Assembly: GCA_003577005.1 (NCBI GenBank)
Contig: QEUW01000314.1
Location: forward strand, 1 to 9,294
DNA length: 9,294 bases
Source: Chloroflexota bacterium
GTDB lineage: Bacteria; Chloroflexota; Anaerolineae; Caldilineales; Caldilineaceae
Direction of reading: 5' to 3'
Shown: in pieces, positions 1-8,539 of the stretch
Position numbering within the stretch: position 1 is the stretch's first letter
Layout of the letters: the number at the start of each line of letters is the position of its first letter
The notes under the pieces: model-generated
The model's database searches: none
What the model was told of the DNA's origin: nothing
The model's input: the letters and a program-made list of their open reading frames with translations, nothing else
Position numbers and translations under genes: made by a program

Positions 1-60
1 ACGATAGTCCGGAACGAACCAGAAACGGACGGCGCAACTCATTTCAAAACGAAAGAAGTT
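1..60 (-). pseudogene. Orphan FGE/C-type-lectin variable-region fragment, partial at window edge
   Basis: Read on the minus strand from 60 to 1, this stretch encodes NFFRFEMSCAVRFWFVPDYR. It aligns without gaps to residues 973-992 of the large NLR (5564-5623) at 45 of 60 bases. Shared anchors include Cys981, Val983-Arg984-Phe985, Pro989 and Arg992. Third codon positions are almost all identical while positions 1 and 2 differ, the pattern left by adenine-directed mutagenesis of a common template. The expected upstream RGGSW core of the FGE fold is missing: similarity stops at about position 60 and the next 118 bases up to the preceding gene's stop match nothing I recognise. I infer a displaced remnant of a diversified sensor tail. 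It could instead be the start of a longer cassette continuing past the left edge. Confidence 0.6.
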
Positions 61-1130
61 ATACCAAGCGTACAGGCGTGCGCACTGCCTCAGAAGTTCA
101 AAACCGCATTTTGTCCATACACACTCTGGATGAATCTTATTGAGGAGTATACACAACCTTCATACGCATAAGTGAGCGCTAAAGTACTAGACAGACTACT
201 CTAAATCCTAGTCCATCATTTCTATGATCAGGTTTGGGACGTTCCCGATGAGCGCACGCGATGTACTCGCTATCACTCCCAAATGAACCCCCGCGAATAA
301 CTCTCAGCACAGTTTCATCTACATCCAAATTCTCACGACCGTCGAATGGATCGTATGGATAGCCAAAGTCCGGTTTTTCATAGGTCTTGCCCCATATGCT
401 CCGTGTCCATTCATACACATTACCAGCCATATCTAGACAACCGTATGGGCTGGCGCCACTGGGAAAAACGCCCACGGGTGTTGTACTCAGTAGCCGCAGA
501 TCGCGGTAGTTACATCGATTCGGCGCATTTTCATTGCCCCAGGGATACTTACGCTTATCCTGGTCACCCCGCGCTGCCTTTTCCCATTGGGCCTCGCTTG
601 GCAGGCATATAACCTTATTCGTAACGTGGCTGAGCCACCTACAATAAGCTATGGCGTCACTCCAGTCGATTCCAACAACTGGATGGCTCTCCTGCTCTTT
701 AGGTGGCCGGTCATCATCCCAAAATATAGGTGCGCTGTGCCCGGTAGCTTGTGTAAAACGGTAATACTGGGTATTTGTGATCGGTACAGGGGAGATCAGA
801 TACGTGGCTAGGTGTAGCCTATGTACCAAATTATCTTTACCGATCCAAAATTCTCCAGCAGGAATCATTATCCAATTGGGTTCACCGTACGGCATAGTCC
901 AATAATTCTGACCATTGATGCGTACGAGCGCAATGGCAGCCGCGATACGCCGACTGACAACACTCCTATAACCTATCCCTGTTGGGCCCTTTATCCCAAG
1001 AAGCTGCCTAAATACTCGAAAAAGAGGGTAACGATGGTTAATTTTCAGCAGCATGGACGTCATTTTGGGACCAACAGTTACGCGAAAGGGGCCAAAACGT
1101 TCTCTAATAGTGGCCGTCTCTAATTCGGTA
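61..1130. other. Low-GC block covering the C-terminal sensor of the soluble NLR and its 3' flank
   Basis: Base composition changes abruptly near 1130. Hand counts give 23/60 G+C for 181-240 and 25/60 for 1021-1080, against 42/60 for 1201-1260 and 47/60 for 2101-2160, although all lie in one uninterrupted reading frame. The block encodes roughly residues 632-947 of the NACHT-FGE protein plus 118 non-coding bases, and it uses A/T-ending codons (AGA, CTA, GTA, ATA) that are rare in the neighbouring genes. Its left edge abuts the orphan variable-region fragment. I interpret it as a sensor module acquired from a lower-GC source. No repeats or integrase sites are visible at either edge. Confidence 0.6.
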
Positions 1131-3022
1131 TGCAACTGTCTTTGAATACGTTGCTCGAGCTCAGTCTCCACCCGGCTGCCCCCCACATCGCGCAGACACT
1201 CCGCCGCCAACACCAGGTTGTGATAGGGCTCCGGCTCCTGCGCCTGGTCCGCTATGGCCCGGATCAGGCGCGCCGTCCGCTCCTTGCTCTGCGTGCTCAA
1301 ATAGCCGGCGCTCAACAAGATCACCTCGCGCCACCACGGATCGGCTGTATGCCCCAACGTATAGGCCACATAATCGTCCCGCCCGGCCACTGCCCGTGCC
1401 ACCAGGTACTCCTGGAAGGTCAAATGCGAAAAAGCATAGACCCCCTCACCCCGCGCCACCAACAGCCCGGTGCGCTCCTGGATCACAGCCAGAAAACGCG
1501 CCACCGCCGACTCGCTGGCCCGCCGCTCACCGGTGATGGCGTCAAACAGCGTCGCCAACAGCGCCTCCAGCTCGCCGGCGTCGATCTCCTTCTGGCCCGC
1601 CTCGTGCATGGCCAGCGCCACATGTTCCAACAGCAACCGCTTGTCGTTGGTCTCGAACGGCTGCTCCGGCAGGATCGCCGGCTCCTGCACCCCCTTGGCC
1701 TCCTCCCACTTGCCCAGCAACACATCCACCGCCTCGGCATAGAGTTCGGCCCGGCGGTCCGGCAACTTCACCCGGTCGCGATGCACCATGGCGATCACCG
1801 TCAGCATCAGCGGGTTGATGGCCAGCTCACGGATACGCTCGTTGCCCGTGATCGCCTCGACCAACTGCTGCGTCTGCGCCGCGGCGTAACCCTCGGCGCT
1901 TTCACTGCCTCCCATCTGCGCCACCGCCAACATGCGGTGCCACTGGGTCAGAAACTCCCGCACATCCGCCAGGCTGAAGTCGCGCACTGTGGTGACAGCA
2001 TAGCCCTCCCCCAGCCGCGCCGCCCCGCTATAGCCCACGATCCGGCTCGTCACCACATACCGGCAATCGGGATAGGCCAGCGTAAACCGCTCGACCACCC
2101 GCGCCACCCGCCGCCGCAGGTCGGGGTCAGCCACCTCGTCCAGCCCGTCGAGCAGGAGCGCCGCCCGCCCGCTGCCCAGCCACTCGTCAAAGAAATCAGC
2201 CGGCACGTGGATGCGCTCTTCGCCCAACGACCGCACCAAAAACTCCAACAGCCGCACGTGCCCTTCCACGCTCTCGTCGGCATATTTTTGCAGATAGCCC
2301 GCCACCTGGCGCATGGGCAACAGGATCGGGAGCCGCGCCGGCTCCGCCGCCAGTTTGCTCTGGACCACCGCCGTCGCCTCGGCCAGGTCACGCGCATAGA
2401 GCAACGTCAGATAGCGCAACAGCGTGGTCTTGCCGCTGCCCGGGTCACCCAGCACTACCAGCCGCATATGGGCCGCCAGCGCCTCCTCCACCGTCACCGT
2501 CACCGTCTCGGTGACCAGGTGCGCCTCACCGCCCTGCCTCAGCCCACGCACCCGCTGTCCTTCGCCCGGCGCCAACGTGGCCTCCGCCGCCAGCCAGCGC
2601 TCTTCCGCCTCCACCAGCCGCTGCTGGGTCGCCCGCAGCCGGACATAGATGCGGTCCAGTTCGATCTGCACCAACCGCCCCCCCGAGCGGATGCCCTGCA
2701 AGTGCAGATAGCGGTTGCGCCCGATCACATGCTGCAAATAACGCCCCAACGCCGTCTCACGGTCTACGGCCGGCATGGGAATCTCCGCCTCGCCGACCAC
2801 CACCATGGCCCCCTGCCCGGCGATGACCACATGGTCGCCGGTGACGATGGTGTTGTCACGCACGTCTCTGCCGGCAGCCACCCCCCGTTCATCCACGGCC
2901 ACTTCTTTGGCAGCCTCTCTCCCCAACGCCGCCAGCGCAGCCCGGTAGGTGTCCTCCTGCAGAAAACCACCCTCAAACGCCCGCCGCAGCTCCTCCACCC
3001 GCCTGGCCCCATCCCCACCCAT
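179..3022 (-). CDS. Soluble NLR-like protein: NACHT ATPase with C-terminal FGE-sulfatase (C-type-lectin fold) domain
   Basis: STAND-type NTPase expected to oligomerise on sensing a ligand. I chose ATG 3022 (947 aa) because GGAG at 3034-3031 lies 8 bases upstream; an in-frame GTG at 3040 lacks a Shine-Dalgarno. Order, numbered from ATG 3022: SHOCT-like helical segment 6-34; Gly/Asp-rich motif 51-77 (AGRDVRDNTIVTGD) also present in the CHAT protein; NACHT with Walker A GDPGSGKTT 192-200 and Walker B LLLDGLDEV 289-297; winged-helix/helical part to about 615; FGE-type domain 715-947 with IPAGEFWIG 720-728, HPVVGIDW from 780, LPSEAQWEKAARG 807-819, YPWG 826-829, MAGNVYEWT 865-873, RGGSF 910-914 and GLGFRVV 937-943. 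The two catalytic cysteines of true formylglycine-generating enzymes are absent (Ser and Ile there), so a ligand-binding role is likelier. No TM segment is seen. The start is 21 bases after the CHAT stop, so the two are probably cotranscribed. Composition shifts near residue 632, marking a chimeric gene. Confidence 0.9.
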   Translation of the reverse strand: MGGDGARRVEELRRAFEGGFLQEDTYRAALAALGREAAKEVAVDERGVAAGRDVRDNTIVTGDHVVIAGQGAMVVVGEAEIPMPAVDRETALGRYLQHVIGRNRYLHLQGIRSGGRLVQIELDRIYVRLRATQQRLVEAEERWLAAEATLAPGEGQRVRGLRQGGEAHLVTETVTVTVEEALAAHMRLVVLGDPGSGKTTLLRYLTLLYARDLAEATAVVQSKLAAEPARLPILLPMRQVAGYLQKYADESVEGHVRLLEFLVRSLGEERIHVPADFFDEWLGSGRAALLLDGLDEVADPDLRRRVARVVERFTLAYPDCRYVVTSRIVGYSGAARLGEGYAVTTVRDFSLADVREFLTQWHRMLAVAQMGGSESAEGYAAAQTQQLVEAITGNERIRELAINPLMLTVIAMVHRDRVKLPDRRAELYAEAVDVLLGKWEEAKGVQEPAILPEQPFETNDKRLLLEHVALAMHEAGQKEIDAGELEALLATLFDAITGERRASESAVARFLAVIQERTGLLVARGEGVYAFSHLTFQEYLVARAVAGRDDYVAYTLGHTADPWWREVILLSAGYLSTQSKERTARLIRAIADQAQEPEPYHNLVLAAECLRDVGGSRVETELEQRIQRQLHTELETATIRERFGPFRVTVGPKMTSMLLKINHRYPLFRVFRQLLGIKGPTGIGYRSVVSRRIAAAIALVRINGQNYWTMPYGEPNWIMIPAGEFWIGKDNLVHRLHLATYLISPVPITNTQYYRFTQATGHSAPIFWDDDRPPKEQESHPVVGIDWSDAIAYCRWLSHVTNKVICLPSEAQWEKAARGDQDKRKYPWGNENAPNRCNYRDLRLLSTTPVGVFPSGASPYGCLDMAGNVYEWTRSIWGKTYEKPDFGYPYDPFDGRENLDVDETVLRVIRGGSFGSDSEYIACAHRERPKPDHRNDGLGFRVVCLVL

Positions 3023-3043
3023 CACCCTATCTCCACCCACGCA

Positions 3044-4240
3044 TTACGTATCACGCCTCACCAGCCGCACCTGCGCCGGGTCCGCCTTGCCAAAGAGCCG
3101 GGGCAGCTCCGCAGCGGTTGGCTGCTGTGGGCCTGTCTGCGCTGGGTCCGCTCCAACGCTCTTGAGGTGGCGGGCACTGCCTGGGGCGCCATCCCCCTCC
3201 ATCCTCAGTTGCGAGAGGCCCAGTTCAAAAGCCGTCTCGACCATGCGACCATAGGCCAGCGCCCGGTAAAAGGCCACGGCAAAGTGCAACGCTGCCTTAT
3301 CTGGTATCGCATCCGACATGCCGACCCCACAGTCGATTTGCTCGCCAATCGCCGCCGCCTGCTGCGCCGAATAACAGGCATTGAGCACCACACAGCGCAC
3401 ATCGTCCTTGAAAATGCCAAACAGATGGCTCAACGCCGCAGCCGGCACCGGGGCGCTCCGCCCCTGCGCATCCTGCAAGATGATCTCACCGGCCTGGCTG
3501 CCGTGACCGCTAAAATGGACAATGGCCGGACGGTAGCGCAACAACAGCTCGTGCAGATCCTCCACCCGCACCGCCCAGTGCGAACGCAGGTCAAAGCGAT
3601 CCCGAAACGCCCCCTGCCGCATGGCCGCATCGATGGCCCGCACCTCTTCGTCCAGCCGCAGCCGCACCGTGTCGCTGGGATTAGCCGCCAGGAAGAGCAG
3701 CGAGATGACGGGCGGCTTCCCCTCGACCGCCGCCGGCGCCTGAGCGCCCGAACTGACCGGCCCCTGCACCTCCCTGGCCACCACGTTGCCCTGCCCCACC
3801 ACATTGCGGTCACCCGTGACAATGGTGTTGCCACGCATGTCACGCCCGGCGACCACCGCCCGCTCGCCGCCGGCCACAGCACCCGGCCCCTGGGCAATCG
3901 CCCCACTCCCGCTCAACGTGGCGCTGTAGGTGGGCCCTACCGCCTCTCCCTGCTGCGCCAGCAGCTCCAACAACCGCCGCGCCGCCGCCACCACCGCGGC
4001 ATCCCGGTCAGCCCGCACCCGCTCCAGCTCCTCTTGCAGCGCATCCTGGCGCGGCTTCGACTCCGGGCGCTGCTCCACCTTCGCCACCGCATCCGTCACA
4101 TCGGGATTGGCGCCAAACCGGCGCTCAATTAGCCCTTTGAGCGCCGCATAGCCATCCTTGACCGCCTGCGCCGCCACCTCCTTTCCGGCCGCCACTGCAC
4201 CAGCCACCACCGCCGCCACGATCATCGACACTGGTTCCAT
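3044..4240 (-). CDS. CHAT-domain caspase-like cysteine protease, candidate NLR effector
   Basis: A 398-aa protein. ATG 4240 is preceded at 5 bases by AGGAGG (4251-4246), which decides the start over an in-frame codon 12 residues upstream. Order: small-residue hydrophobic helix about 6-19 and a helical/coiled region to about 98 (KDGYAALKGLIERRFG, then an Ala/Glu/Arg-rich coil); a glycine-rich stretch 110-155 with spaced G-A-I-A-x-G repeats resembling a beta-roll and ending in AGRDMRGNTIVTGDRNVV; then the CHAT domain about 177-345. The catalytic dyad is visible as His246 in VHFSGHGS and Cys289 in VVLNACYS, and a late GVGMSDAIPDKAALHFAVAFY segment is typical of the family. CHAT proteases cleave protein targets, and in bacterial conflict systems they execute cell death or activate a partner. 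It lies directly upstream of the NACHT-FGE gene and shares its glycine motif, which suggests that they work together. The substrate cannot be inferred. Confidence 0.9.
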   Translation of the reverse strand: MEPVSMIVAAVVAGAVAAGKEVAAQAVKDGYAALKGLIERRFGANPDVTDAVAKVEQRPESKPRQDALQEELERVRADRDAAVVAAARRLLELLAQQGEAVGPTYSATLSGSGAIAQGPGAVAGGERAVVAGRDMRGNTIVTGDRNVVGQGNVVAREVQGPVSSGAQAPAAVEGKPPVISLLFLAANPSDTVRLRLDEEVRAIDAAMRQGAFRDRFDLRSHWAVRVEDLHELLLRYRPAIVHFSGHGSQAGEIILQDAQGRSAPVPAAALSHLFGIFKDDVRCVVLNACYSAQQAAAIGEQIDCGVGMSDAIPDKAALHFAVAFYRALAYGRMVETAFELGLSQLRMEGDGAPGSARHLKSVGADPAQTGPQQPTAAELPRLFGKADPAQVRLVRRDT

Positions 4241-4257
4241 GATTCCCTCCTGGGAGC

Positions 4258-4274
4258 GCAGACCTCTGGTCTGC
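4258..4274 (-). other. 7-bp perfect hairpin in the CHAT leader
   Basis: GCAGACC (4258-4264) and GGTCTGC (4268-4274) form a perfect 7-bp stem with a 3-base loop. It lies between the VapC stop (4288) and the Shine-Dalgarno of the CHAT gene (4246-4251). No T-run follows it on the minus strand, so it is not a convincing intrinsic terminator. It could modulate translation of the CHAT gene, act as an RNA-processing site that unlinks toxin from protease, or be an operator. Function is inferred from position only. Confidence 0.45.
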
Positions 4275-4287
4275 AATGACCTACGGG

Positions 4288-4680
4288 CTAAACAATCAAG
4301 CGGCCAGCCAATTCAGGGTAGTCGGCAAAATGACCGTCGACGCTGGCCAAGCGGCCATCCATTTCCAGTGCGGTGGCGATAATGATGCGGTCAAAGGGAT
4401 CACGATGAATCTCTGCCAATTCGACCGCCCGCGCGGCGATGGCCGGCGTAAACGGCAGCAATTCCACCCCCGAACCGGTCGGCGCCAATGCAAGCCACTC
4501 CCGTACCGGCAGCGGTAGGGTAAGGCGGCCACGACGAGAGGCTAACGCCAGCTCGAAACAGGAGACTGGCGAAACACCAACACGCGGCGCGGATTCAATT
4601 TCAGCGAGCAGCGCAGAGGGCAACCGCTGGTGTTCGAGGTTGATCCACCAGAACCAGATGTGGCTATCCAGTACGATCAT
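4288..4680 (-). CDS. vapC: PIN-domain ribonuclease toxin (VapC family)
   Basis: A 130-aa single-domain PIN protein, normal length for VapC. Acidic active-site residues are visible: Asp5 in MIVLDSHIWFW, Glu43 in SCFEL, Asp94/Asp97 in HRDPFDRIIIATAL, and Asp115 in LASVDGHF. PIN toxins are Mg2+-dependent endoribonucleases that cut tRNA or rRNA when the antitoxin is lost. I chose ATG 4680 because it overlaps the antitoxin stop as ATGA (4680-4677), the coupling typical of TA pairs; a TTG at 4695 is in frame but would lie inside the antitoxin gene and adds non-conserved residues. The CHAT gene starts 47 bases downstream of the stop, so the pair probably heads that operon. The targeted RNA cannot be told from sequence. 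Confidence 0.9.
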   Translation of the reverse strand: MIVLDSHIWFWWINLEHQRLPSALLAEIESAPRVGVSPVSCFELALASRRGRLTLPLPVREWLALAPTGSGVELLPFTPAIAARAVELAEIHRDPFDRIIIATALEMDGRLASVDGHFADYPELAGRLIV

Positions 4681-4916
4681 TGCAGGCACGCCCAATCCGC
4701 CTCATCGACGATCGGGCTGATCAGATCGCCCAACGTTTGGCCTTTTCCCGCAATATCGGGGTGGGGACGGCGTCGCTTCGTCCGCTTCGGGCGTTTGGGC
4801 TTATCTTCATCGACCGTCAGGGTGATCACTTCAACCCGACGATTGAGAAAAGTCTCGGGCAATTCAATCACCACCTGACGCTGCTTGACTTCTATGAACT
4901 GGCGGTTGACCTGCAT
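4677..4916 (-). CDS. Antitoxin partner of the PIN toxin (VapB-like / DUF2281-like)
   Basis: A 79-aa protein starting at ATG 4916, with GGAG a few bases upstream. The N-terminal part (about 7-37) has the short beta-strand pattern of small AbrB/DUF2281-like antitoxins (IEVKQRQVVIELPETFLNRRVEVI). A very basic linker (KPKRPKRTKRRRP, about 39-51) follows, then a C-terminal segment (IAGKGQTLGDLISPIVDEADW) of the sort that wraps around and blocks PIN toxins. It overlaps the toxin start by four bases. Such antitoxins usually repress their own promoter, and the inverted repeats upstream (5013-5117) could serve that purpose, but I see no specific operator match. Family assignment rests on architecture and pairing rather than a diagnostic motif. 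Confidence 0.8.
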   Translation of the reverse strand: MQVNRQFIEVKQRQVVIELPETFLNRRVEVITLTVDEDKPKRPKRTKRRRPHPDIAGKGQTLGDLISPIVDEADWACLQ

Positions 4917-5169: not shown

Positions 5170-5291
5170 GGGTGCGTCCAGCAAAAGGGGCGGGTTGACC
5201 CACGTCCCCGGCACTGGCGGGCGAGACGTACGGGGGCGAACCAGTTGCTCGCCAGTGCCGGGGACGTTTGCCCCAAAATTTGGACGCACCC
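5170..5291. repeat. 122-bp nested inverted repeat
   Basis: Outer arms GGGTGCGTCCA (5170-5180) and TGGACGCACCC (5281-5291) are perfect inverted copies. Inner arms ACGTCCCCGGCACTGGCG (5202-5219) and CGCCAGTGCCGGGGACGT (5250-5267) are a perfect 18-bp pair around a 30-base loop that itself holds GGGGCGAACC-type sequence. The whole unit would fold into a long cruciform. No open frame with coding character is present. It is probably a mobile intergenic repeat, independent of the element at 5013-5117 because the arms are unrelated. Confidence 0.65.
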
Positions 5292-5521: not shown

Positions 5522-8500
5522 TCAACGGCCGGGGGCCACAACCCGAAAACCAACAAGGTTGAGACGATCGCCCGGATCGTTCCCGAAACGGACGACGCAA
5601 CGCACGTCAAGACGAAGGTCGTCCCACGAACCGCCACGCAACACGCGACGTACGCTCGCTGGCGCTCGGGTCTCTTCTCGGCCATCACCTGCATTGTAGG
5701 GGTATCTCCAATCTTCTCCCCACAAGCTCTGTGTCCACTCCCACACATTACCGGCCATTTCCTCGACGCCACACGGGCCGGCCCCGTGCGCAAAGCAGCC
5801 GGCGGCGCTGGTGGCACCGATGCCTGTATCGTCATAGTTGGCCCGCTCTGCGTCATCTTCGTCCCCCCACGGGTAGATGCGTGCCGGTCGTGGATTCTCC
5901 ACCAGTGACAGCAGCGGCGTTGGTCTCAGACTCGTCGCTTCGACAATGAGCGCATCAGGCAGAACATGCAGTCCCCCTCTTGCCACCTTTTCCCACTCGG
6001 CCTCGCTCGGCAGCCGCACCGACTGTTCCGCTCCCAACACGCCCTGCTGGCGCAAATGGACGGTCAACCAGCGGCAAAAGGCCAGCGCCTCATACCAACT
6101 GACGCCCACCACCGGGTGATTAGGCAGATGGTGCGGGTCCCCAAGGTTGATGGGCGCCGAGCGCCACCCCTGCTGGCGGCGAATGAGCTCTCGTTTGTCA
6201 TCCAGAGCGTAAATAACATCTTGCACTCGACCCTCGCTCCAGAAGCCAGCTTCGATCGCCTCCGCCCAGTACGCCGGCTCGGCATAGCCACCGGCCACGA
6301 CAAAGGCCTTATACTGCGCATTCGTCACCGGATAGCGGCTCATCCAGAAGTCGTAGGGGATCTCGACCGTGTGCTCCTCCTCGCCTTCCCCCATGCGGAA
6401 CGGCCCCGCCGGTACATAACAGAACTGCATTGCTTCGACCGTCATCACCTCCGGTCGCGGGTCGCCCAGTTTGCCCAATGCCCGCCCCGCCGCCGCCCGC
6501 AGGGGCGCTCGCACCTGGGCCGGGTCCGTCATCGTCGCCAGCAGCGCCTGCACCACGGCCGTCTGGCAGGCCCGCGTCACCCCGCCCGGCCAGGCGTCCA
6601 CCACCGCTTCGCCGGCGCGCACGGTCGCCGCCCCCGGCTCACCGGCCCCGCTCTGCACCAACCGCTGCACCACCTCGCCGGCCGCCTCGTCCCGCTGCTG
6701 GATAATGCCCATGTAGCCCACCGCCAGCAGTGTCACCTCGTGCCAACTGGTGTCGTCCACATGGGCAGCCAACAACTCGGCCACTGTGCTCACATCCCGC
6801 TGGCCTTGCTGGGCAATCGCCACCGCCGCCAGATACTCCTGAAAGGTGAGGTGGATAAAGCCATATTCCCCGGCGCCCCGTTCCAGCAACAGCCCGGCGT
6901 ACTCGCGGGCATCGGCCAACAGTTGCTGCGCCGCCACCTCGGGGTTGGGCTCCTCGCGGGCGGCGTAGATCTGCTCCAGTTGGCGCCGCATCTCTTCTCG
7001 CTTGACCAAGCCGATGCCGGGGCTGCTCTCGTGCATCCACAACGCCAACGGCGCCAACACCCGCAACGTCTCCACCACGTCCAGGTCCCGGCTGGGCGGC
7101 CGGTCCAGCCCGCGCGCAAGGTTCCAGTGGCGCAGCAGCGTCTCGATGTACTTCTGGTAGAGTTCCACCCGCCGCTCGGGCAAGGTCACCCCCTGCCGCT
7201 TCATCAGCGCCAAGATCGTCAGCAAAAGCGGGTTGGCCGCCAGTTGCCGCACGCCCGGATTGTTGCGCGTCGCCGCTATCAGTTCGGCCTTCTCTTGGGC
7301 GGCATCGGCCAGCGCCGCCGCCGTGGCGCCCTGGGCTGCTTTTTCCAGCGCTGCCGTCCAGCGGTCGACAAAGGCCTCGATCTCCTCGTCGCCAAAATCG
7401 ACCAGCGTACACTCCGCCAGCCCTTCCGCCGTCGGCCGCACCTCACGGTAGCCCACCACCCGGCTGGTGAGGATAAACTTGTTGCCGCGCAGCCGGTGGT
7501 AGGCAAAGAACTCTACCACCCGGCTCACCACCAGATGGCGCTGCCCCAACTCCTTGACCTCGTCCAGCCCATCCAACAGCAACAAGGCGCCCCCCTGCGC
7601 CAGCGCCTCCTCGAACATCTCCTCCACCGGCAGATGGATGCCCCGGTCGTGAAAGTAATCCCCCAGAAACGCCTGCAAGGATACGTCCCGCTCCGCCAAC
7701 GCATTGGCATACGCCGACAGCGGCGCCAGGATCGGCAGCCGGCCCGCCAGCCCCAGCGCCTGCCCCTGGCCGAGCGCCACACAGAGCGTCACAAACTTCA
7801 AAAAAGTTGTCTTGCCAGAGCCTGGGTCCCCCAGCACGATCAGCCCGTCCTGTCTGGCCAGCAGCTCGATCAAGGGCGTTGGCTTGCTCAGCCGCTGCCC
7901 CATGGCTGCCGCCTCCTCGTCGCTGACGGCCCGCCCCGCCAGCCGCAACTGTCTCGCCCACGTTTCGCCCTCCGGCAGCTCAATATGCGCTTGCAGCGGC
8001 ACATACATCTCCAGCAAGGGCAGTTGCAGCGCCACCCGGTCGGCCATCCCCATACCTTTGAAATCCAGATACCGGTAGCGGCTCACCAGAAAATTCAAGT
8101 AGGCCTGGGTCGTCTGCTCTAGAGCCGCCGCATCCAACCGCCGCGTCCCCACCCGGCGCCAGAAATCCGCCGCCACCTCCTGCGTCACCACCACCACATT
8201 CTGGTCACCGGGGATCACGATGCTGTCACGGATATCCCGCCCGGCGCCGGCGCCTCGCTCCCCGGTAGAAACGGCGGGCTGTGCCTGGTCATCCGAACGC
8301 TGGTGGGCAATGGTCTGCGGAGTGCGCCGGTTGCGCCACCAGCCGATCACCACCACAGCGCCAGCGCCAACCCACAACACCAGCTGCACCAGGTCGGTGA
8401 GCCCCTGGATCATCTCCGTGTTGGCGCCGACAAACGACAACAACAGCGGCGCCCAGCGGTGCGCGGTCAGCGCCAACGCCACGCACGCTGCAACCACCAA

Positions 8501-8539
8501 TAGCAGGGGCACCAAAGGCAGCAATTTGACTTTGTTCAT
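5522..8539 (-). CDS. Membrane-anchored NLR-like protein: 2 TM + NACHT ATPase + FGE/C-type-lectin sensor
   Basis: A 1005-aa protein from ATG 8539; AGGA lies about 12 bases upstream. Hydrophobic segments at about 5-25 and 50-67, followed by WWRNRR, predict a two-pass anchor with the bulk on the cytoplasmic side. Residues 94-118 carry the ERGAGAGRDIRDSIVIPGD motif also found in the CHAT protease and the other NLR. NACHT: Walker A GDPGSGKTT 237-245, Walker B LLLLDGLDEV 319-328, sensor-like TSR 358-360, HLTFQEYL 563-570. After a helical spacer the FGE-type domain runs 705-1005: VPAGPFRMG 709-717, HPVVGVSWYEALAFCRWL from 808, LPSEAEWEKVARGG 843-856, YPWGDE from 889, MAGNVWEWT 928-936, RGGSW 968-972, VGFRVV 996-1001. 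The FGE catalytic cysteines are replaced (Asp974, Val979), so it should bind rather than oxidise. Residues 973-996 look like a DGR variable region. It has its own promoter and is separated from the other NLR operon by 600 bp. Confidence 0.92.
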   Translation of the reverse strand: MNKVKLLPLVPLLLVVAACVALALTAHRWAPLLLSFVGANTEMIQGLTDLVQLVLWVGAGAVVVIGWWRNRRTPQTIAHQRSDDQAQPAVSTGERGAGAGRDIRDSIVIPGDQNVVVVTQEVAADFWRRVGTRRLDAAALEQTTQAYLNFLVSRYRYLDFKGMGMADRVALQLPLLEMYVPLQAHIELPEGETWARQLRLAGRAVSDEEAAAMGQRLSKPTPLIELLARQDGLIVLGDPGSGKTTFLKFVTLCVALGQGQALGLAGRLPILAPLSAYANALAERDVSLQAFLGDYFHDRGIHLPVEEMFEEALAQGGALLLLDGLDEVKELGQRHLVVSRVVEFFAYHRLRGNKFILTSRVVGYREVRPTAEGLAECTLVDFGDEEIEAFVDRWTAALEKAAQGATAAALADAAQEKAELIAATRNNPGVRQLAANPLLLTILALMKRQGVTLPERRVELYQKYIETLLRHWNLARGLDRPPSRDLDVVETLRVLAPLALWMHESSPGIGLVKREEMRRQLEQIYAAREEPNPEVAAQQLLADAREYAGLLLERGAGEYGFIHLTFQEYLAAVAIAQQGQRDVSTVAELLAAHVDDTSWHEVTLLAVGYMGIIQQRDEAAGEVVQRLVQSGAGEPGAATVRAGEAVVDAWPGGVTRACQTAVVQALLATMTDPAQVRAPLRAAAGRALGKLGDPRPEVMTVEAMQFCYVPAGPFRMGEGEEEHTVEIPYDFWMSRYPVTNAQYKAFVVAGGYAEPAYWAEAIEAGFWSEGRVQDVIYALDDKRELIRRQQGWRSAPINLGDPHHLPNHPVVGVSWYEALAFCRWLTVHLRQQGVLGAEQSVRLPSEAEWEKVARGGLHVLPDALIVEATSLRPTPLLSLVENPRPARIYPWGDEDDAERANYDDTGIGATSAAGCFAHGAGPCGVEEMAGNVWEWTQSLWGEDWRYPYNAGDGREETRAPASVRRVLRGGSWDDLRLDVRCVVRFGNDPGDRLNLVGFRVVAPGR
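5552..5623 (-). other. Candidate DGR variable region (VR) at the C-terminal tip of the large NLR
   Basis: Residues 973-996 sit after the conserved RGGSW and before GFRVV, the exposed ligand-binding loops diversified in C-type-lectin-fold DGR targets. 21 of 24 codons end in C or T, as expected if AAC/AAT codons in a template were mutagenised at their adenines. Aligned to the fragment at 1-60, 13 of 20 codons differ, none synonymously. The template repeat and reverse transcriptase are not in this window, so VR status is inferred from the pairwise pattern. Confidence 0.6.

Follow-up and report, generated by a model that had tools for sequence, protein, structure and literature searches.

The locus raises two questions: whether the 3' end of a NACHT-FGE gene, here called gene 2, has been diversified by a DGR, and what the fragment resembling this tail at the end of the same contig may be. 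The window, that is, the whole stretch of DNA that was analysed, comprises 9294 bases and is apparently the whole contig. The minus strand carries all of its named genes, namely gene 1, a CHAT protease gene, a PIN protein gene with a small ORF, gene 2, and a gene for a LuxR-type HTH protein, and the features referred to below are as follows.

1..63, minus strand: orphan variable-region-like fragment, truncated by the contig end, recognized by alignment to the gene 2 tail
64..178, minus strand: spacer of 115 nt (47% GC) between the gene 1 stop codon and the fragment
179..3040, minus strand: gene 1, 953 aa, with NACHT (residues 194-369) and FGE (residues 721-949) domains
3044..4276, minus strand: CHAT (caspase-like) protease gene, carrying a GRDMRGNTIVTGD motif that resembles the motif of genes 1 and 2
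4288-4916, minus strand: PIN-domain protein and small upstream ORF, between the sensor genes
5522..8539, minus strand: gene 2, NACHT-FGE protein of 1005 aa, from Pfam and a structure model
5552..5623, minus strand: apparent variable region of gene 2, 24 codons from the end of GGSW to the start of GFR, from codon and template-site statistics

Gene 2 encodes a NACHT domain at residues 233-396 (PF05729, E 3.6e-12) and an FGE/C-type-lectin-fold domain at residues 706-1001 (PF03781, E 1.6e-43), and its N-terminus contains hydrophobic segments, as judged by eye, together with a GRDIRDSIV motif. A structural model of residues 689-1005 (pLDDT 86, pTM 0.90) matched FGE proteins in the PDB and placed the variable codons within the C-terminal loops of the FGE fold, where model residues 285-290 (gene 2 residues 973-978) had pLDDT values below 50. 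The best solved-structure matches overall were FGE enzymes, PorK/GldK, and EgtB-type proteins. With its NACHT and FGE domains, gene 2 appears to belong to the NACHT/STAND (NLR-like) type, its N-terminal portion presumably being the effector or adaptor part; its protein cluster comprises five member sequences. The NACHT domain of gene 1 was likewise recognized by PF05729 (E 5.1e-9), and the CHAT protease is a candidate effector partner of the sensors. A motif of the form AGRD(V/M/I)R(D/G)(N/S)..IV.GD..V lies ahead of the main domain in gene 1 (around residue 55), the CHAT protease (around 142), and gene 2 (around 99), and a repeat search of the window indicated that it is encoded by DNA repeat D1. 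When 240 homologue proteins were searched with a regular expression for this motif, the window's own two proteins matched and no others did; the motif may be a shared adaptor or an amyloid-type signalling link from the sensors to the CHAT protease. The PIN protein and its small ORF are possibly a toxin-antitoxin pair, and a 21-nt inverted repeat, with arms 95% complementary and 24 nt apart, lies downstream of gene 2 at 5202-5267.

The initial annotation had aligned positions 1-60 with 5564-5623 and interpreted their differences as a footprint of adenine mutagenesis. Recomputation gave exactly the reported identity of 45/60 and the same 15 differences in 13 codons, with nine, five, and one at the first, second, and third positions of the gene 2 codons, respectively; each of the 13 changed codons alters the amino acid, none is synonymous, and a recount agreed that one copy carries A at 9 of the 15 mismatch sites. 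Over the longer alignment of 1-70 with 5564-5633 the identity is 51/70. The local alignment score is 64, whereas 1000 shuffles of the bases reached at most 36, and the pair was recovered as repeat D3 in the repeat search of the window. The argument that A at 9 of 15 sites implies adenine mutagenesis proved not to be diagnostic, as random mismatches include A about half the time and the share of A is thus a weak test. The distribution of the differences over the codon is more telling, since they affect 1 of 20 third positions versus 14 of 40 first and second positions (one-sided Fisher P 0.009).

Neither a template repeat nor a DGR reverse transcriptase, the pair proposed as a check of the DGR reading, was found in the 9294 bases of the contig, and none of the seven proteins scanned against Pfam is a reverse transcriptase; the DGR question was therefore put to relatives. 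In one Chloroflexi contig, L001, a template lies between two FGE targets and is accompanied by a reverse transcriptase with the sequence GNLTSQ; both targets deviate from the template solely at A, and the match of the second target to gene 2 covers residues 135-1003. The L001 reverse transcriptase was matched in 24 of the 52 genomes of its Chloroflexi family at E <= 1e-20, a few of these matches being partial or weak, and gene-2-like proteins were found in 11 of the 52 at E <= 1e-60. A pair finder that allowed at most one non-A mismatch per 60 bases and required at least six mismatches, and so selects A-type differences by design, detected template/variable-region pairs in 22 of the 32 loci scanned and none in 10 (L150 being the same locus as L001). 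In a control in which the mutable base was exchanged, and in which at least eight mismatches were demanded rather than the six of the main run, A or T gave 22/32 loci, G 0/32, and C 2/32, T counting as A on the opposite strand. After leaving out L150, one opposite-strand match in L159, and an antisense match in L160, 24 extended pairs were obtained, of which 16 had no difference away from template A, six had one, and two had two; the bases found at template A were A 288, T 154, G 150, and C 61.

Searching three whole genomes, a small set, with template patterns yielded one template with three variable regions in G003, one with two in G059, and one with three in G001. All eight variable regions lie in FGE reading frames, with no orphans, and have no mismatches at specified bases. 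The seven same-template pairs that can be formed from these eight sequences, which are not independent of one another, contain 91 mismatches distributed 48/41/2 over the codon positions, with 0 of 65 changed codons synonymous and A in 67 of the 91. The pattern of gene 2 versus the fragment (9/5/1; 0/13 synonymous; A in 9/15) fits that of these pairs. Compared with relatives that carry a template, a reverse transcriptase, and same-template sister regions, the NACHT-FGE tail of gene 2 resembles a DGR variable region, which supports this part of the initial interpretation. A search for the cognate-template pattern with up to three mismatches gave no matches in 396 genomes of the class, none of them known to be of the window's species. 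Reading the fragment as plus-strand coding sequence, where the frame is open and first-position changes would be wobble changes, was ruled out, since the pattern is accounted for by gene 2's FGE match on the minus strand, by the tails of homologues, and by the 48/41/2 distribution of the same-template pairs.

Wider scans returned at least 80 loci in genomes with query A1, where most among the matches listed cover the FGE part only, and 31 loci in viral sequences, while a plasmid tblastn search gave 274 records, every one below 60% identity and none reaching 80% query coverage. One of the viral loci, L084, is an IMG/VR contig in which positions 10702-12638 contain a motif resembling that of an RT, along with an A-rich template from which a variable region departs at 19 sites, all of them A.

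Most of the best 120 homologues listed have tails that vary at the same columns as gene 2. A strict tail pattern, which itself fixes R/G/P columns, fits 135 of the 240 proteins fetched, gene 2 among them, and a looser pattern fits 199 of the 240, gene 1 being excluded. Within the 135 strict-pattern tails the entropy of the variable columns reaches 3.58 bits. No NNC or NNT codon encodes K, E, Q, M, or W, and at 12 AAC/AAT-like columns selected by the analyst these residues account for 23/1620 (1.4%), versus 20.8% in the 250 residues upstream in the same homologues. Columns 18 and 24 contain R, G, or W in 114 and 115 of the 135 tails, respectively, as a mutated AGG would yield, with column 18 being GGG in gene 2 and TGG in the fragment. 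At the level of sequence, these column statistics look like traces of adenine-directed mutagenesis. Seven homologues (P0011, P0015, P0021, P0024, P0025, P0027, and P0030) have the near-identical tail DYSGKNLRCxNRYRYDPDDRF, and in this group the variable region seems fixed.

Of 21 templates from relatives, nine fit the geometry of gene 2 and were used as the reference; in a separate anchoring of all 21, six had no anchor, L153 was mis-anchored, and 14 rows were valid, so the conclusions rest on the nine-template set. Within the first 60 nt of the gene 2 variable region, changes affect 18 of the 25 sites at which the majority of templates have A versus 12 of 35 others (P 0.004), and in the fragment they affect 20 of 25 versus 14 of 35 (P 0.002). 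The tail of gene 1, changed at 15 of 25 versus 23 of 35 (P 0.77), has no DGR signature and was ruled out as a variable region of the same template. Codons ending in C or T make up 21 of the 24 in the gene 2 variable region versus 41.5% gene-wide (P 4e-6). When gene 2 and the fragment were compared directly, differences fell at 11 of 24 A-majority sites versus 4 of 36 others (P 0.003). The proposal that a DGR made all 15 differences is not supported: 11 lie at A sites of the relatives' templates, and the remaining four, at the third base of codon 6, the first bases of codons 7 and 8, and the second base of codon 10, do not, although the organism's own template could carry A at some of these. 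The informative features are the constant third bases and the position of the changed sites on the relatives' templates, which are stronger than the share of A. The gene 2 tail looks like a DGR variable region, its membership being inferred from the relatives.

We consider it likely that gene 2 is a DGR-diversified NACHT sensor and that the fragment is a relic variable region of the same template type. RNA from a template located, like its reverse transcriptase, beyond the contig would be copied with random bases incorporated at template adenines, and the mutated cDNA would overwrite the gene 2 tail, altering mostly the first and second bases of AAC/AAT/AGG-type codons; this scheme is proposed for gene 2 because template, enzyme, and targets occur together in relatives. 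The protein would be anchored in the membrane, with its C-terminal FGE/C-type-lectin domain ending in the variable region, and its presumed role would be sensing of a ligand or antigen, followed by NACHT oligomerization and activation of a death effector, perhaps the membrane segments of gene 2 itself or the neighbouring CHAT protease. The fragment at 1-63 would have retained most of the fixed template bases, with decay begun elsewhere and no sensor gene ahead of it, and would most likely be the 3' end left from an earlier target tail beside gene 1, which now has an AT-rich FGE tail that is not diversified.

The composition of gene 1 bears on this history. Computed in blocks of 50 codons, its GC3 lies at 0.70-0.94 as far as codon 600 and at 0.32-0.60 beyond codon 650; the drop, from roughly 0.85 to roughly 0.45 around codon 620, divides a GC-rich NACHT half from an AT-rich FGE half (window 179-1200). 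The NACHT half is closest to P0215, P0180, and similar proteins (about 70%), whose tails are of the variable type, and the FGE half is closest to P0126 (63%), which shares with P0129 the tail pattern H-R/K-x-RP-x-P. This suggests that the sensor tail of gene 1 was replaced by a non-diversified one, possibly through a sensor-domain swap, and the orphan fragment could be a leftover of that replacement. P0126 and P0129 resemble gene 1 in its NACHT half as well as in its FGE half (60/63% and 64/54%), so the pairing of this NACHT domain with this tail may be old. A further point against the relic being gene 1's old tail is that the homology starts at the start of the variable region, which would be a coincidence under a random breakpoint; the spacer at 64-178 had no detectable similarity to the gene 2 tail (score 24; shuffle 99th percentile 28).

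The fragment's reading frame contains no FGE domain and is preceded by no ATG or GTG, with one in-frame TTG that may open a short frame running some 50 codons to the end of the contig. Three of the four differences at non-A sites lie in the run GAA ATG AGT (GAC GTG CGT in gene 2), which encodes M-S where homologues have V/A/L (181/199) and R (189/199). With its departure from this V-R pair, the missing FGE domain, and differences at 4 of 36 non-A sites, the fragment could not be upheld as a second working copy of the tail. The eight variable regions of relatives had 0 mismatches at specified sites compared with these 4/36, the relatives being scored on cognate templates and the window's 36 sites being taken from templates of other species. 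At the fragment's mismatch sites the non-A bases are nine T and one C (P 0.003 under the relatives' spectrum), placing its T share outside the range of 0.07-0.71 seen per variable region in the 24 pairs; this T bias is not well explained by the DGR spectrum. The T-heavy changes give an F/Y/W-rich reading. DNA from positions 1-420 had four short, weak matches in 396 genomes, none covering the fragment. The most plausible reading of the fragment is a variable-region relic in decay and not a working copy.

The fragment might instead have arisen as an assembly chimera or tip, with variable-region reads of another target joined to the 3' flank of gene 1. The contig does end inside repeat-like hypervariable sequence, probably a common failure point of assemblers, and the 8/8 variable regions within FGE genes in three relatives, with no orphans, point the same way, whereas the 115-nt spacer between gene 1 and the fragment and the changes at conserved codons, which suggest genuine decay, argue for real sequence; we regard a chimera as unlikely. 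When 180 sequences were screened by regular expression for variable-region-like stretches lacking an FGE frame, the 177 matches were, by eye, mostly chance translations and some templates; as the expression requires the conserved R, it misses the window's fragment and is no measure of orphan frequency.

Quite improbable, in our estimation, is that the fragment is a former template repeat whose adenines were lost when mutagenic cDNA or mutation overwrote it. Its location, 115 nt past the gene 1 stop, is near the template position of compact DGRs, the distance from stop to template being 144-190 nt in five of the 18 pairs that could be placed and 476-1699 nt in the remaining 13 (21 same-strand pairs tried, three unplaced), and its homology starts at the variable region, as that of a template would. 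Its composition speaks against this origin: A accounts for 9 of 63 bases (0.14), versus 0.22-0.34 in 96-nt stretches, chosen by eye, around relatives' templates, so the fragment is not an A-rich template; it has no A at sites where gene 2 differs; and it is without the GGSW-type codons that the nine reference templates retain. The fragment was ruled out as gene 2's present template, having no A where needed, and we agree with the initial annotation that neither copy is the template. There is very little probability that a repeat at the template position was overwritten by its own mutagenic cDNA, or that the fragment serves beside gene 1 as a silent cassette, stocking variable-region sequence for recombination; if true, the DGR would be editing or archiving its own repertoire. 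Ordinary duplication under positive selection with no DGR involved, which would account for the lack of synonymous changes and for the location of the differences in the C-terminal loop region of the FGE fold, is hardly credible given the constant third bases, the 1.4% of K/E/Q/M/W at AAC/AAT-like columns, the R/G/W residues at AGG-like columns, the DGRs carried by relatives, and what looks, from sequence, like ordinary divergence between gene 1 and gene 2 outside that region (71/51/120 differences at the three codon positions, with synonymous changes in 49 of 141 changed codons).

A DGR-diversified gene 2 would have several counterparts among known systems. TvpA of Treponema denticola (PDB 2y3c), a DGR variable protein, was matched over the whole sequence (E 5.2e-8), most strongly across the variable region, although no stretch by itself passes the limit; TvpA is not known to have a NACHT module. 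Parts of Doré et al. 2024 (PMC10907252) present proteins with NACHT and CLec domains as antigen sensors that are DGR targets and vary almost solely at first and second codon positions, with filamentous Chloroflexi among the hosts, shuffling of tail domains, and protease effectors nearby. As far as those parts describe them, gene 2 resembles these NACHT/STAND-CLec sensors in its NACHT and C-terminal FGE/CLec domains, its first- and second-base variation, its protease neighbour, and its Chloroflexi setting, and the window differs in that its template and reverse transcriptase lie off the contig and a decayed orphan variable region adjoins a non-diversified paralogue. Sections of Kaur et al. 2020 (PMC7159879) report DGR-linked FGS domains in NTP-dependent conflict systems; there too the FGE/FGS C-type-lectin domain is the variable part in a conflict-system setting, although the cases in those sections are mainly MoxR-vWA ternary systems, whereas gene 2 is a NACHT protein with a CHAT neighbour. 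Portions of Roux et al. 2021 (PMC8144416) report enrichment of nonsynonymous variants in variable regions, and portions of a 2026 study (PMC12875486) report that the surrounding sequence affects misincorporation opposite template adenine. Gene 2 fits best in the published class of DGR-diversified NACHT-FGE sensors, a type of system that is already known.

The locus extends this class by a probable DGR-type NACHT sensor that has Chloroflexi proteins among its nearest homologues. It also indicates that a variable region may be recognizable when its template is absent from the sequence at hand, through C/T-ending codons, R/G/W columns, and the near-absence of K/E/Q/M/W in homologues. Finally, the position of the relic next to a paralogue that is not diversified is a hint that the tails of sensors may be exchanged between diversified and fixed types.
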